Source: Nocardiopsis potens DSM 45234
GTDB lineage: Bacteria; Actinomycetota; Actinomycetes; Streptosporangiales; Streptosporangiaceae
Direction: 5' to 3'
NCBI RefSeq assembly: GCF_000341105.1
Contig: NZ_ANBB01000058.1
Coordinates: 1-47,105 of the forward strand
DNA: 47,105 bases
Position numbers and translations under genes: made by a program. Below, in pieces: positions 2,987 through 38,082 of the stretch. Positions within the stretch are counted from its first letter, which is position 1; the number at the start of each line of letters is the position of its first letter. The notes beneath the pieces are model-generated. The model was not told the origin of the DNA, did no database searches, and worked only from the letters and a program-made list of their open reading frames with translations.

Positions 2987-3502
2987 GTGAAGGACAACGT
3001 CGACCGGCGGCTGGACCAGTGGCGGGCCGAGCGGCCCGACATCGACCCCGCGCCGATGGGCGTGGTGAGCCGGATCCAGCGCGCCTGCCGCCTGCTCGAA
3101 CGCGAGCTCCGCGACAACTTCGCCCGGTTCGACCTGCAGATATGGGAGTTCGACATCGCGGGGACGCTGCTCCGGTCCGGGCCGCCGTACCGGCTCACCG
3201 CCGGGCAGCTGGTCGAGTCGTCGATGGTCACCTCCGGGGCGATCACCAACCGGATCGACCGCCTCGCCGCCAGAGGGCTGGTGACCCGCGAGGTCGATCC
3301 GGAGAACCGGCGCAGCGTGCTGATCACCCTGACCGAGGAGGGCAAGGAGCTGATCGACCGGGTCGTCGTCGAGCACGTCGCACTGGAGGAGCGGCTCCTC
3401 GGCGAACTGGGCGGCGAGGACCGGGAGCGGCTCGCCGGGCTCCTGCGCGAGCTGCTCATCGGCCTCGGCGACGGCTCGCCCGGCAACCCGCTGAAGAAGT
3501 AG
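2987..3502 (+). CDS. MarR-family transcriptional regulator
   Basis: This 171-residue winged-helix protein has the MarR layout: N-terminal helices, a recognition helix region around LVESSMVTSGAITNRIDRLA (about residues 77-96), then the wing RGLVTREVDPENRRSVLITL and a long C-terminal dimerisation helix. The N-terminus is about 25 residues longer than in minimal MarR proteins. It starts with GTG and is divergent from the EamA/NmrA operon. Two palindromes of matching design in the shared intergenic region make it the likely local repressor. The ligand is unknown. Confidence 0.9.
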   Translation: MKDNVDRRLDQWRAERPDIDPAPMGVVSRIQRACRLLERELRDNFARFDLQIWEFDIAGTLLRSGPPYRLTAGQLVESSMVTSGAITNRIDRLAARGLVTREVDPENRRSVLITLTEEGKELIDRVVVEHVALEERLLGELGGEDRERLAGLLRELLIGLGDGSPGNPLKK

Positions 3503-3650
3503 CGGCCGGCCGCGACGCCCCCACCGCCGCGGCCCCGGGAACCCGCCGGGCCCCGCCCGCCGCGGCGCCCACCGCTGCGGATGCGGCGCCGTCCGGGCCC
3601 AGGTGTGCGCCGCCGGGCGACCGCTCCGGGCCGTGCCGGGCGTTACACCG

Positions 3651-3687
3651 AAAATCCCTCGACCCCGCGGTGCGCCCGGGCTAACCT
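3651..3687 (+). promoter_or_regulatory. WhiB7-like promoter of the ABC-F gene
   Basis: An A-rich block AAAATC (3651-3656) sits two bases before a -35-like TCGACC (3659-3664). After exactly 17 bases comes a -10 TAACCT (3682-3687). This A-rich patch abutting the -35 hexamer is the layout known for WhiB7-dependent promoters of ribosomal-antibiotic resistance genes in actinobacteria. Transcription would begin near 3694. Confidence 0.6.
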
Positions 3688-3694
3688 GGCCCGC

Positions 3695-3751
3695 GTGTAT
3701 GCGCAAACGGCGAGCACCGCCGCCGCCATGAGGCCCTGGACCCGCGCCTGA
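3695..3751 (+). CDS. leader peptide 1 upstream of ABC-F (leaderless GTG)
   Basis: A GTG lies 7 bases after the -10 box, at the predicted first transcribed base. It opens an 18-codon reading frame, MYAQTASTAAAMRPWTRA. An internal ATG at 3728 could make a shorter MRPWTRA; both end at the TGA at 3749. The stop falls inside a hairpin (3742-3759), so ribosome position could decide whether that hairpin forms. No homologue is known to me; the assignment rests on position and architecture. Confidence 0.45.
   Translation: MYAQTASTAAAMRPWTRA
3699..3731 (+). CDS. leader peptide 2 upstream of ABC-F (MRKRRAPPPP)
   Basis: The 10-codon frame ATG-CGC-AAA-CGG-CGA-GCA-CCG-CCG-CCG-CCA-TGA overlaps leader 1 in another frame. 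Its stop overlaps the ATG at 3728 (ATGA). The basic MRKRR start followed by four prolines resembles short upstream ORFs that act as ribosome-stalling sensors. There is no Shine-Dalgarno site and it begins only 4 bases inside the transcript. Whether this frame or leader 1 is translated cannot be decided from sequence. Confidence 0.45.
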   Translation: MRKRRAPPPP

Positions 3752-3813
3752 CGGCGCGGCACCGGCCGATCCACTCTCGTGTGTCCCGCCGTCCCGGTAG
3801 CCATGCCGGGCGG
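3742..3813 (+). terminator. two-hairpin attenuator candidate before ABC-F
   Basis: Hairpin A pairs CCGCGCC (3742-3748) with GGCGCGG (3753-3759) across the loop TGAC and overlaps the leader 1 stop codon. Hairpin B pairs CCGTCCCGG (3789-3797) with CCGGGCGG (3806-3813), with one bulged T. Neither is followed by a T run, so factor-dependent termination, or control by masking, is more likely than simple intrinsic termination. Confidence 0.4.
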
Positions 3814-3857
3814 TCCTCTCGTGCTGCCCGGCTCCGCAGCGAAACGTGGAGCACACC

Positions 3858-5573
3858 GTGGACGCACTTCACTCACACGACCGGCTCTCCGACCGGTCGG
3901 CACATGACATCCTCTCCGAACTGAACGCGGCCGGGCGGCTCCCGGCCGGCGCGAGCGCGCACGTCCGCGCCCGCGGGATCCGGGTCGTCCTCGGCGGGCG
4001 CCCGGTCCTGGCCGGCGTCGACGCCACCGTCTCCCGGCGGTCCCGCCTGGCCCTCGTCGGCGAGAACGGGCGGGGCAAGACGACGCTGCTTCGCGTCCTC
4101 TCCGGCGACCTGGCCCCCGATGAGGGGCGGGTGGAGCGCGCGGGCACGGTGGGCGTCGTCCACCAGTCGCTCGCCTCCCGCGGCGGCGAGACCGTCGGCA
4201 CCCTGCTCGCGGGGGCGCTCCGCCTCCCGCACCTGGCGCTGCGCGCGCTGGACCTGGCCGCCGAGGGCCTGGAGAACGGGGACGGGGACGCGGAGGAGCT
4301 GTACGCGGCGGCGCTGGAGGCCGCCGTGCGGCTCGACGCCTGGGACGCCGAGCGCCGGGTGGACGTCGCCCTGGAAGGGCTCGGCGCCTGCACCGACCGG
4401 GACCGCGCGCTGGCCGCGCTGTCCGTGGGCGAGCGCTACCGGGTGCGCCTGGCGTGCGTGCTCGGCGCCGCCCACGACGTCCTGCTCCTGGACGAGCCCA
4501 CCAACCACCTCGACGCCGGCGCGCAGGCGTTCCTCGCCGAGCGCCTGCGGGCGCACCCGGGCGGGCTGGCGATCGTCACCCACGACCGCGCCCTGCTCCG
4601 CGAGGTCGCCGAGGACTTCCTCGACCTGGACCCGAGCATGGACGGGCGGCCGCGGTCGTTCGCCGGAGGGTACGAGGGGTGGCAGGAGGGCCGCCGCCGC
4701 GAGCGCGAGCGGTGGACCCAGGAGCACGAGGCCCAGCAGGCCGAGCACGCCAGGCTGGCGCAGGCCGCGGAGGAGGCGCGGAACCGGCTGTCCACCGGGT
4801 GGAGGCCGGACAAGGGGACCGGGAAGCACCAGCGCCAGTCGCACGCGGCGGGCGTCGTGCAGAGCTTCAAGCGCAGGCAGGAGGCGCTGGAGGCGCACCG
4901 GGTCACCGTGCCCCGGCCGCCGCTCTCGCTGCGCTGGCCGGAGCTGCCGGCCAAGCGCGGCGCCCCCGTGCTGAGCTGCGAGGGGGTGGCCGTCGCGGGG
5001 CGCCTGCACGGGCCGGTGACCGTGCAGATCGAGGGCGGCGACCGGCTGCTCGTCACCGGCCCGAACGGGGCCGGCAAGTCGACGCTGCTCGCGGTGGTCA
5101 CCGGCGCCGCCGCCCCGACGTCCGGGGCGGTGCGCAGGTCCGACGGCGCCCGGGTCGCCCACCTGTCCCAGGAGGCCCCGGCCTGGGAGGACGGGCTCCA
5201 GGCCTACGAGGTGCACCGGCGGCACACCGCGCGGCTGGTGTCGGAGGGGAGGGTGGCCGCGTCCGACATCGTGCCGCTGCGCGGCACCGGCCTGCTGGAC
5301 GCGGAGGCGCTCCGCACCCCCGTCGGCCGGATGTCGGAGGGGCAGAAGCGCCGCCTGCACCTCGCGCTCTGCCTGGCCGAGCGGCCGCACCTGCTGGTCC
5401 TCGACGAACCCACGAACCATCTGTCGCCGCTGCTCGTCGACGAGCTCACCGACGCGCTCCGGGAGACCCCCGCGGCCGTCGTCGTCGCCACGCACGACCG
5501 CCGGATGCTGGGCGACTTCGAGGGCTGGCGGTCCGTCTCCCTCTCCGCGGCCCCCGGAGGGAGCGGCGGCTGA
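3858..5573 (+). CDS. ABC-F ATPase, antibiotic-resistance type ribosome protection protein
   Basis: This 571-residue protein has two tandem ATPase domains and no membrane segments, as in ABC-F proteins that act on the ribosomal E site. Domain 1 has Walker A GENGRGKT (about 68-75), signature LSVGE (about 188) and Walker [13 protein letters not shown] highly charged inter-domain linker spans about 270-345. Domain 2 has GPNGAGKS (about 401-408), signature MSEGQ and [12 protein letters not shown]. The start is the GTG at 3858, with GGAG six bases upstream; an upstream GTG at 3846 has no such site. The WhiB7-like promoter and leader peptides point to inducible resistance to macrolide, lincosamide, streptogramin or pleuromutilin type drugs. 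The spectrum cannot be read from the sequence. Confidence 0.92.
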
Positions 5574-37393: not shown

Positions 37394-37418
37394 TGTGGAC
37401 GAACGGGGCTGTGGACAA
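37394..37418. promoter_or_regulatory. two DnaA-box-like 9-mers upstream of ssd
   Basis: TGTGGACGA (37394-37402) and TGTGGACAA (37410-37418) are reversed TCGTCCACA and TTGTCCACA, spaced 16 bases apart inside a short direct repeat GGGGC-(C)TGTGGAC. They lie 53-77 bases upstream of the ssd start. Confidence 0.4.
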
Positions 37419-37419
37419 G

Positions 37420-37453
37420 GACGGCCCCCGCCGGGGGGAGGGCGGGGGCCGTC
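37420..37453. terminator. strong 13-bp hairpin upstream of ssd
   Basis: Perfect arms GACGGCCCCCGCC (37420-37432) and GGCGGGGGCCGTC (37441-37453) flank an 8-base G-rich loop. It is directly next to the DnaA-box pair. It could end a minus-strand transcript entering from the 38 kb side. Confidence 0.6.
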
Positions 37454-38082
37454 CGCGGTCCGGCTCCGGGGGGGTAGAGCCGGCTCCGTTCCAGGAGAGG
37501 TCCGGGTCGGTCGGCGCACAGGGCGGCCGGTCACGGGCAGAAGAGGAGAGGGGACGCCCGCGAGCGGCGCAGGCGCTCGGTCGAGGTAACAAATCCGATA
37601 CGCAACGTTACCACGCGGGCGGCGAGCGGAGGAGGGGAACGGAGACTCCGCCCCTCTTTCCAAAGTGCCTGATCAGGCGTACAAAAGAAGACAGGAGGTG
37701 GGTGAGGACCCACTGGGCACGGCAACCGGGTACCCACGCGTCACTCAGGCCGCGGAAGGCCCGTCCAGACCAGGTCGCTCCTGGTCGGACCAGGTATGGA
37801 GCACGCTTGATAGCCCGGGGCGACGTGCTCGCGGCGGCGCTCCGTCCGCACCCGTGGCGGATGCGGGGAGCGCCGTTCGCCGTGTTCGGGATGTGACCCA
37901 ACCGAGACCTGCGCCGGTGCGGGGGCGGCAGCCCTTCCCCGCTTCCCCACCGGGCCCGCCCGTACCCGCCGATCCCGGAACAGGGGGCGGAGCGCGGCCG
38001 GCGCCCGGTCCGCATCGACCGCCGCCGCACCGGGAGGGCGACCGCCGATCGGCCGCGTGAACGGCGCACCGGGGCGGCGCGC
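37454..38082. other. long intergenic region with locally lower GC and short repeats
   Basis: No confident gene. Features seen: GGTAAC/GTTACC inverted repeat (37585-37612); GGGG-AA-CGGAGACTCCG-CCCC hairpin followed by TCTTT (about 37635-37659); perfect palindrome GCCTGATCAGGC (37667-37678); AGGAGGTG at 37693-37700, three bases before a GTG that opens a 64-codon frame to 37896; and three GACCAGG-type repeats, two as the hairpin GACCAGG-TCGCT-CCTGGTC (37768-37786). Sequence from about 37580 to 37810 has more A and T than its surroundings. An unrecognised RNA or small gene is possible. Confidence 0.4.

Follow-up and report, generated by a model that had tools for sequence, protein, structure and literature searches.

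The leader upstream of the ABC-F gene in the analysed window (the whole stretch of 47,105 nucleotides from Nocardiopsis potens DSM 45234) is best read as a WhiB7-driven, leaderless, erm-like macrolide attenuator of this gene, with a probability of about three quarters. Attenuation of the ABC-F gene, which the initial annotation had already proposed as the role of the leader, is likely. The papers compared are given by their PMC numbers. The relevant features of the window are the following:

3650 to 3655 (+): WhiB7/WblC box GAAAAT (read directly; consensus GAAAWY from PMC7157823)
3659 to 3664 (+): -35-like hexamer TCGACC, departing from TKGMNN at base 2
3682 to 3687 (+): -10 hexamer TAACCT, 17 bp downstream of the -35 and 7 bp upstream of GTG 3695
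3695 to 3751 (+): leader 1, MYAQTASTAAAMRPWTRA plus stop, GTG start, predicted leaderless (frame and 7-nt spacing in 15/15 loci)
3699 to 3731 (+): leader 2 frame, MRKRRAPPPP plus stop, judged non-functional (kept in 2/18 loci)
3731 to 3739 (+): R-P-W codons (codons 13 to 15 of leader 1), where a macrolide is predicted to arrest the ribosome with W in the A site (R/K-X-R or R/K-P-W in 18/18 aligned loci; motifs of PMC6238534)
3742 to 3759 (+): hairpin 1:2 (hairpin A), CCGCGCC-TGAC-GGCGCGG, 7 bp, stop of leader 1 in the loop (direct read, alignment, module energies)
3750 to 3756 (+): segment 2, GACGGCG, able to pair with segment 3 (invariant in 15/15 loci; 2:D3 mean z -2.67, 19 loci)
3787 to 3793 (+): segment 3, CGCCGTC, pairing with segment 2 or (as CCG.CCCGG, 3789 to 3797) with segment 4 (alignment, fold, shuffles)
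3805 to 3814 (+): segment 4, GCCGGGCGGT, pairing with segment 3 or 5 (4:5 mean z -3.87, 19 loci)
3823 to 3832 (+): segment 5, GCTGCCCGGC (shuffled-partner and module energies)
3831 to 3837 (+): GCTCCGC, overlapping segment 5, able to pair with the Shine-Dalgarno (SD) region (shuffled-partner and module energies)
3846 to 3852 (+): segment 6, GTGGAGC, with the SD sequence GGAG at 3848 to 3851 (kept before the ABC-F start codon)
3858 to 5573 (+): ABC-F protein of 571 aa; TlrC/CarA/OleB/SrmB is the closest named model, with a score below its cut-off (NCBIfam search)

Promoter and downstream gene

The box GAAAAT, an instance of the GAAAWY element of WhiB7/WblC promoters, is separated from TCGACC by 3 bp. 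In the WblC regulon of S. coelicolor, as described in the accessible text of PMC7157823, GAAAWY lies 3 bp before the -35 element TKGMNN, which is followed by a spacer of 16–19 bp and TANNNT; transcription starts 7 or 8 bp past the -10, and the -35 is less conserved. TANNNT and the 17-bp spacer of the window fit this consensus, and TCGACC misses TKGMNN at base 2. The pattern GAAAWY-N3-TNGMNN-N16..19-TANNNT, in which one -35 base was widened from TKGMNN after the site had been seen, had a single match in the 47-kb window; 100 shuffles searched with the same relaxed pattern gave no match. Seven WhiB-family matches were detected in the same genome, one of which (L120) contains GVWGGEL...RGRPRK; the RGRPRK tail is taken here as the mark of WhiB7, and L120 is presumably WhiB7-like. 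The WhiB7-style promoter described in the initial annotation is supported by box, spacer and -10, together with the presumably WhiB7-like gene in the genome. Directly upstream of the leader, a gene for a MarR-family regulator is located (window 2987–3502, +), whose best NCBIfam models remained below cut-off.

The ABC-F gene most likely starts at GTG 3858 behind GGAG (3848–3851), and the mechanical start of the open reading frame (3846) falls inside the SD region. In the relatives, too, a conserved SD sequence precedes the start codon, Kocuria coralli (L039) being the exception. The best of 188 models was NF000171 (TlrC/CarA/OleB/SrmB; 310.7 bits, below its cut-off of 800), and NF000355 (ribosomal-protection-like ABC-F; 301.6 bits) likewise stayed below its cut-off of 380. 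It is probable that the gene confers antibiotic resistance. Close orthologues are patchily distributed (E ≤ 1e-200 in 14 of 250 genomes of the family, own genome included, and in two of six genomes of the genus), and all 14 carry a leader of the leader 1 type. Nine ABC-F genes with 53–58% identity (L014–L022) possess another leader type, as judged by eye, and were left out of the leader counts.

Other leader types were observed as well. In front of the ABC-F genes L014–L022 and L036, a third type encodes 6–8 residues ending with LYL, YFL or FFL before the stop and lies, by eye, shortly downstream of a TANNNT-like box. The genome also contains a second ABC-F gene (G000:C15:61240-62832, -), which is preceded by the WhiB7-like box GAAAAAACC, the -10 sequence TACTCT and, 7 nt past the latter, a three-codon leader GTG-CGC-AAC-TGA (MRN). 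Its relatives (L023–L027 and L029–L032) show, by eye, MRN, MRI, MRK, MRY or MRH before the stop; these leaders are reminiscent of the published MRS and MRI leaders.

Conservation of leader 1 and its predicted arrest motif

Leader 1 comprises 18 codons, from GTG 3695, which lies 7 nt past the -10, to the stop TGA (3749–3751). Its conservation was analysed in 15 loci, namely the 14 ABC-F orthologue loci (window included) and Kocuria coralli L039, the one useful relative among seven loci of a scan of genome contigs. In all 15 loci, the frame starts exactly 7 nt past TANNNT (6–10 nt were allowed) and ends at the conserved sequence TGACGGCG. The lengths range from 12 to 18 codons, so that a short leader frame is conserved and length changes occur in threes. 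The window and L010 encode VYAQTASTAAAMRPWTRA, in which the first V is the GTG start; the other loci encode VYTGTAFMRPRLRA, VYRGTASAMRPWTRA, VFTASLRLRPRA, VLTASMRLRFRA, MYGRCVFFMRPRSRA, MARGIWSQK[I/V]RSAR, MALGIWSQRLRSAR or MSSPIAMMKPWTAR. The frame that the initial annotation had placed, leaderless and with 18 codons, at the predicted transcript start is therefore kept in relatives, including its spacing, and the beginning of leader 1 coincides with the expected start of the RNA. Covariance searches contributed four further loci (L097, L099, L121 and L124), which brought the set to 19; in all of these except L097, a start with TANNNT could be identified. At this locus (G221:C12:189627-189761), the leader RNA is kept and no TANNNT occurs 5–9 nt before a start; the ABC-F frame behind it looks internally shortened, and the locus is perhaps a decaying copy.

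In 18 of 18 loci, R or K stands at -6 before the stop, position -4 is occupied by R in 14 loci and by W in four, and the distance from motif to stop is identical (RPW in 3, KPW in 1, RPR in 2, RLR in 5, KIR in 2, KVR in 4 and KLR in 1). The 19th locus, L097, has RLR by eye. The idea that basic and polyproline stretches cause the stalling pointed to residues other than this conserved motif, which occupies codons 13–15 in the window.

The leading edge of a ribosome lies about 12–14 nt past the start of the A site. With Trp15 in the A site, it would be located at the leader stop, so that arm 1 of hairpin A (3742–3748) would be masked and arm 2 freed; the motif is thus placed such that a ribosome stalled at the predicted site would cover the first arm.

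Erythromycin-dependent pauses are enriched at +X(+), XP(X), +X(W) and XP(W), the bracketed residue being in the A site (PMC6238534, partial text). According to the available part of PMC8298421, ribosomes stall at Arg-Leu-Arg; a peptidyl-tRNA ending in Arg-Leu in the P site fails to react with Arg in the A site, and XPW is listed for erythromycin. The motif of the window is RPW, not the better-studied RLR, and as a sequence it fits both XP(W) and +X(W). For ErmDL, the same source describes a dependence on +X+ with telithromycin and no strict need with erythromycin, for which RLR is dispensable; the motif is therefore not the whole sensor. The occurrence of R-L-R, K-I-R, R-P-R, R-P-W and K-P-W at one fixed position provides a natural test of how context determines which macrolide is sensed.

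Potential alternative pairings of the leader RNA

Hairpin A over the stop of leader 1 is present as initially annotated, and downstream of it the pairing CCG-U-CCCGG/CCGGGCGG was read directly. The two annotated hairpins A and B do exist, but the RNA offers more alternative pairings than these two. The region 3695–3875 folds better than all but one of 200 shuffles (z -2.42), and the consensus fold of the 15-locus alignment contains the invariant pairing GACGGCG/CGCCGUC (2:3) and GCCGGGCGG/GCUGCCCGGC (4:5). Since 2:3 is invariant in the aligned loci, covariation is almost absent: two of 24 predicted pairs show a double change (covariation term -0.5), one of them, by eye, the exchange of G-C for U-A within 4:5 in L039. 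The U that is bulged from 3:4 and paired in 2:3 is also invariant in the 15 loci; L124, which stands outside the alignment, has a C.

When the 19 loci were compared with shuffled partners, the pairings 4:5 (mean z -3.87), 2:D3 (-2.67) and 5:6 (-2.04) stood out; 1:2 had a mean z of -1.49 and was weak in the L048 group, and 3:4 (-0.79) was no better than its shuffled partners. GUGUGUCC, which lies immediately upstream of segment 3, could also form a long-range pairing with the SD sequence. This pairing looked convincing by eye, was part of the MFE structure and showed a clade pattern in cross-duplex energies; it was dropped as a main element, as its mean z of -0.53 was no better than that of shuffles.

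In each of the 19 loci, the sum of module energies is lower for the OFF state (1:2 + 3:4 + 5:6) than for the ON state (2:3 + 4:5), the difference ranging from 1.9 to 19.2 kcal/mol, and in all of them the balance turns to ON once 1:2 is removed. This ordering also appears in 89–123 of 200 dinucleotide shuffles per locus, and the switch rule is therefore no proof; only the depth is informative, and each of the two sums is reached by at most two of 200 shuffles at any of the 19 loci. Within the 5:6 module, the SD becomes more accessible in 15 of 19 loci when 4:5 occupies segment 5, less accessible in three and equally accessible in one. In whole-leader folds with the stalled ribosome masked, SD accessibility rises in 11 of 15 loci (in two by ≤ 0.02) and falls in four, among them the window (from 0.20 to 0.08), so that modelled folding gives mixed support for the window itself. 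No Rfam family was found at gathering score for the leader RNA in the window. Elsewhere in the window, a 6C RNA (RF01066, 54.1 bits) was detected at 37416–37489 (-).

Proposed mechanism and alternative explanations

From these sequence features, we infer the following course. The WhiB7-activated promoter would produce a transcript starting at or next to GTG 3695, and the first codon of the RNA would open the 18-residue leader peptide, so that the sensor would start at the first base of the RNA. Without the drug, the ribosome would complete the leader and leave, the segments would pair as 1:2, 3:4 and 5:6, and the SD sequence in front of the ABC-F gene would be buried by the last of these pairings. 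If the exit tunnel contained a macrolide, the ribosome would be arrested while Pro14 occupied the P site and Trp15 the A site; its leading edge would reach the stop codon and cover segment 1, segment 2 would then pair with 3 and segment 4 with 5, and segment 6 and the start site would be freed for synthesis of the ABC-F protein. Binding of WhiB7, the macrolide as the drug class and control of translation rather than of termination are likewise predicted. If this is true, control would be exerted on two layers, by WhiB7 at the promoter and by the ribosome itself on the leader, and the RNA element would mark probable macrolide-responsive resistance genes of three kinds.

The initial annotation had regarded two overlapping frames as competing drug sensors on one RNA. 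Both frames are indeed present in the sequence, leader 2 (ATG 3699, TGA 3729–3731) being shifted and its stop overlapping the internal ATG 3728 of leader 1. Overlapping uORFs (MLV and MRS) have been published for are5sc (PMC12421871) and two leader peptides for ermB (PMC8274638), both known from partial texts. However, MRKRR[A/V]PPPP occurs in only two of 18 loci, the window and the sister species L010 of the same genus. An ATG at this offset in L047 and L099 opens the unrelated peptides MVDASFS and MEVSAP, and 14 of the 18 loci lack it. The stop lies 20 nt upstream of the leader 1 stop in all four loci with the ATG, a shared position that results from leader 1 encoding M-R or L-K there (xTG-ARG); in the window, TGA arises from ATG-AGG. 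The sole difference in the overlap between the window and L010 is silent in leader 1 (AGC/AGT) and changes A to V in leader 2 (GCA/GTA). Furthermore, ATG 3699 is at +5 of the predicted transcript and would, by analogy with mycobacteria, where RTG is preferred at +1 to RTG at +2 to +5 (PMC4633059, partial text), be a poor near-leaderless start. Even for are5sc, the toeprint described in the accessible part of PMC12421871 indicates that only one of the two uORFs is translated. Conservation of both frames, as in the class of dual overlapping-uORF regulators proposed for are5sc, is thus absent here; leader 2 was rejected as a sensor on these grounds, the second peptide looks like an accident of sequence, and two competing sensors are highly improbable.

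Less remote, although still unlikely, is a leader with the same sensor that acts by premature transcription termination, with 4:5 or another hairpin as terminator. Helix 4:5 is the strongest, and transcription attenuation has been described for ABC-F genes such as LmrC and VmlR (PMC8546547 and PMC12421871, partial texts), but the helices end on the conserved SD sequence, and no T-tailed terminator-like hairpin was found in 3500–3900. The sensor part being common to both, this explanation is a variant of the WhiB7-driven macrolide attenuator, and the odds given to the alternatives are not exclusive. Terminators of actinobacteria may lack a T run; translation attenuation is favoured from the modelled pairings, and this preference is held loosely. 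It is also rather improbable that the leader answers another stress (lincosamide, amino acid or general stalling) and that R-X-R/R-P-W is kept for codon or RNA constraints. The leader region consists of G+C-rich codons, among which those for R, A and P are favoured; moreover, the nearest ABC-F models were reached only below cut-off, and four of six MFS leaders found with the covariance model R1 (see below) lack R-X-R. Against this, the conserved residues R/K (-6) and R/W (-4) are encoded upstream of arm 1, AAG and other non-CG codons occur in K-I-R, K-V-R and K-P-W, and R-X-R is present in 16 of 17 Erm relatives.

Similar leaders before erm and MFS genes

The covariance model R1 matched in 50 of 250 genomes of the family. 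The 16 strong matches (E 7.3e-23 or better) are the 14 ABC-F orthologues, L097 and L099; the 34 weak matches range from 1.1e-9 to 7.6e-4. In 388 genomes of the class, 20 matched, 11 inside and nine outside the family. The best 30 of the 50 family matches were examined, and four more via the class search. Among the 43 distinct loci examined, 18 lie before ABC-F genes, 17 before erm genes, six before MFS genes and two before neither, the classes being assigned by eye and ten downstream proteins being checked against models. Three of these (L102, L108 and L123) score above the Erm cut-off. L121 and L124 resemble ABC-F proteins without reaching the cut-offs, and L103, L111, L125, L130 and L132 correspond to DHA2/LmrA-type MFS models, also below the cut-offs. 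The two loci with neither a leader nor a resistance gene (L129 and L133) were taken as chance matches.

A leader 7 nt past TANNNT was found in 17 of 18 ABC-F, 15 of 17 erm, six of six MFS and neither of the two other loci; the count of 38 of 41 leans towards 7, as the candidate nearest to 7 nt was picked, and the 15-locus test with 6–10 nt is cleaner. R/K-X-R/K or XPW occurs within the last eight leader residues at 17 of 18 ABC-F, 16 of 17 erm, two of six MFS and neither of the two other loci. L097 and L122 had no leader according to the script; by eye, L122 has MCAAIRLRSAR plus stop 10 nt past TACCCT. Many erm leaders share, by eye, segments 5 (GUGCUGCCCGGCUCCG) and 6 (CGGAGCAC). The DHA2/LmrA-like MFS genes (L103, L104, L111, L125, L130 and L132) possess the same kind of leader; four of these leaders (L104, L111, L125 and L130) end with VTRxxR before the stop, without R-X-R, and perhaps have another drug specificity. 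The 19-nt pattern of hairpin A was also tried as a class-wide probe and discarded; it occurred in 25 of 394 genomes, and among the 29 sites examined four ABC-F leaders (L074, L075, L077 and L078) were recognised, the others showing no leader by eye.

Judged from sequence likeness, a common origin of the ABC-F, Erm and MFS leaders is likely, and convergence on one leader design is possible. One may tentatively go further, at somewhat less than even odds, and assume that one ancestral leaderless attenuator RNA has spread in actinomycetes among unrelated genes for macrolide/lincosamide resistance (ABC-F, Erm and LmrA-like MFS) as an exchangeable sensor cassette under WhiB7-type promoters, R-X-R having turned into R/K-P-W in some lineages, perhaps repeatedly. 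If so, R/K-P-W should shift the drug range from ketolide-responsive to cladinose macrolides only.

Comparison with known systems

Attenuation of ABC-F and erm genes is already known. The tlrA gene of Streptomyces fradiae is reportedly a tylosin-resistance gene under attenuation; as an attenuated resistance gene of an actinomycete, it resembles the present system by description only. A leaderless R-X-R/R-P-W attenuator, or its sharing by ABC-F, Erm and MFS genes, was not found by title and beginning of the abstract among the matches listed, which cover few subscription journals.

The following comparisons rest on the accessible parts of the papers. For Streptomyces, ABC-F attenuation (LmrC, Are5sc and TiaA), WblC attenuation and the overlapping uORFs of are5sc are described in PMC8546547 and PMC12421871. 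Control of yxjB by termination and translation upon tylosin stalling is reported in PMC6851288, and the uORFs of erm genes, including those of actinomycetes, were surveyed in PMC11264731, where part of the erm side may already stand. LmrC, Are5sc, TiaA, VmlR, CplR and MsrD are likewise ABC-F proteins under ribosome-mediated attenuation (PMC8546547, PMC12421871, PMC10201436). The first five respond to lincosamides, streptogramin A and pleuromutilins and have leaders such as MLV, MVGDDDISG, MIN or MRI; MsrD answers macrolides, but is streptococcal.

The promoter of the window shares box, 3-bp gap, spacer and TANNNT with the WblC/WhiB7 regulon promoters of S. coelicolor and differs from them at base 2 of the -35. 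The Erm-type attenuators (ErmDL with Arg-Leu-Arg, ErmBL and ErmCL) also combine a short leader, macrolide arrest and a refolding of the mRNA that favours the resistance gene (PMC8298421, PMC10219788). In contrast to them, the leader of the window is predicted to be leaderless, stands under a WhiB7-type promoter, has R-P-W in place of R-X-R and targets an ABC-F gene.
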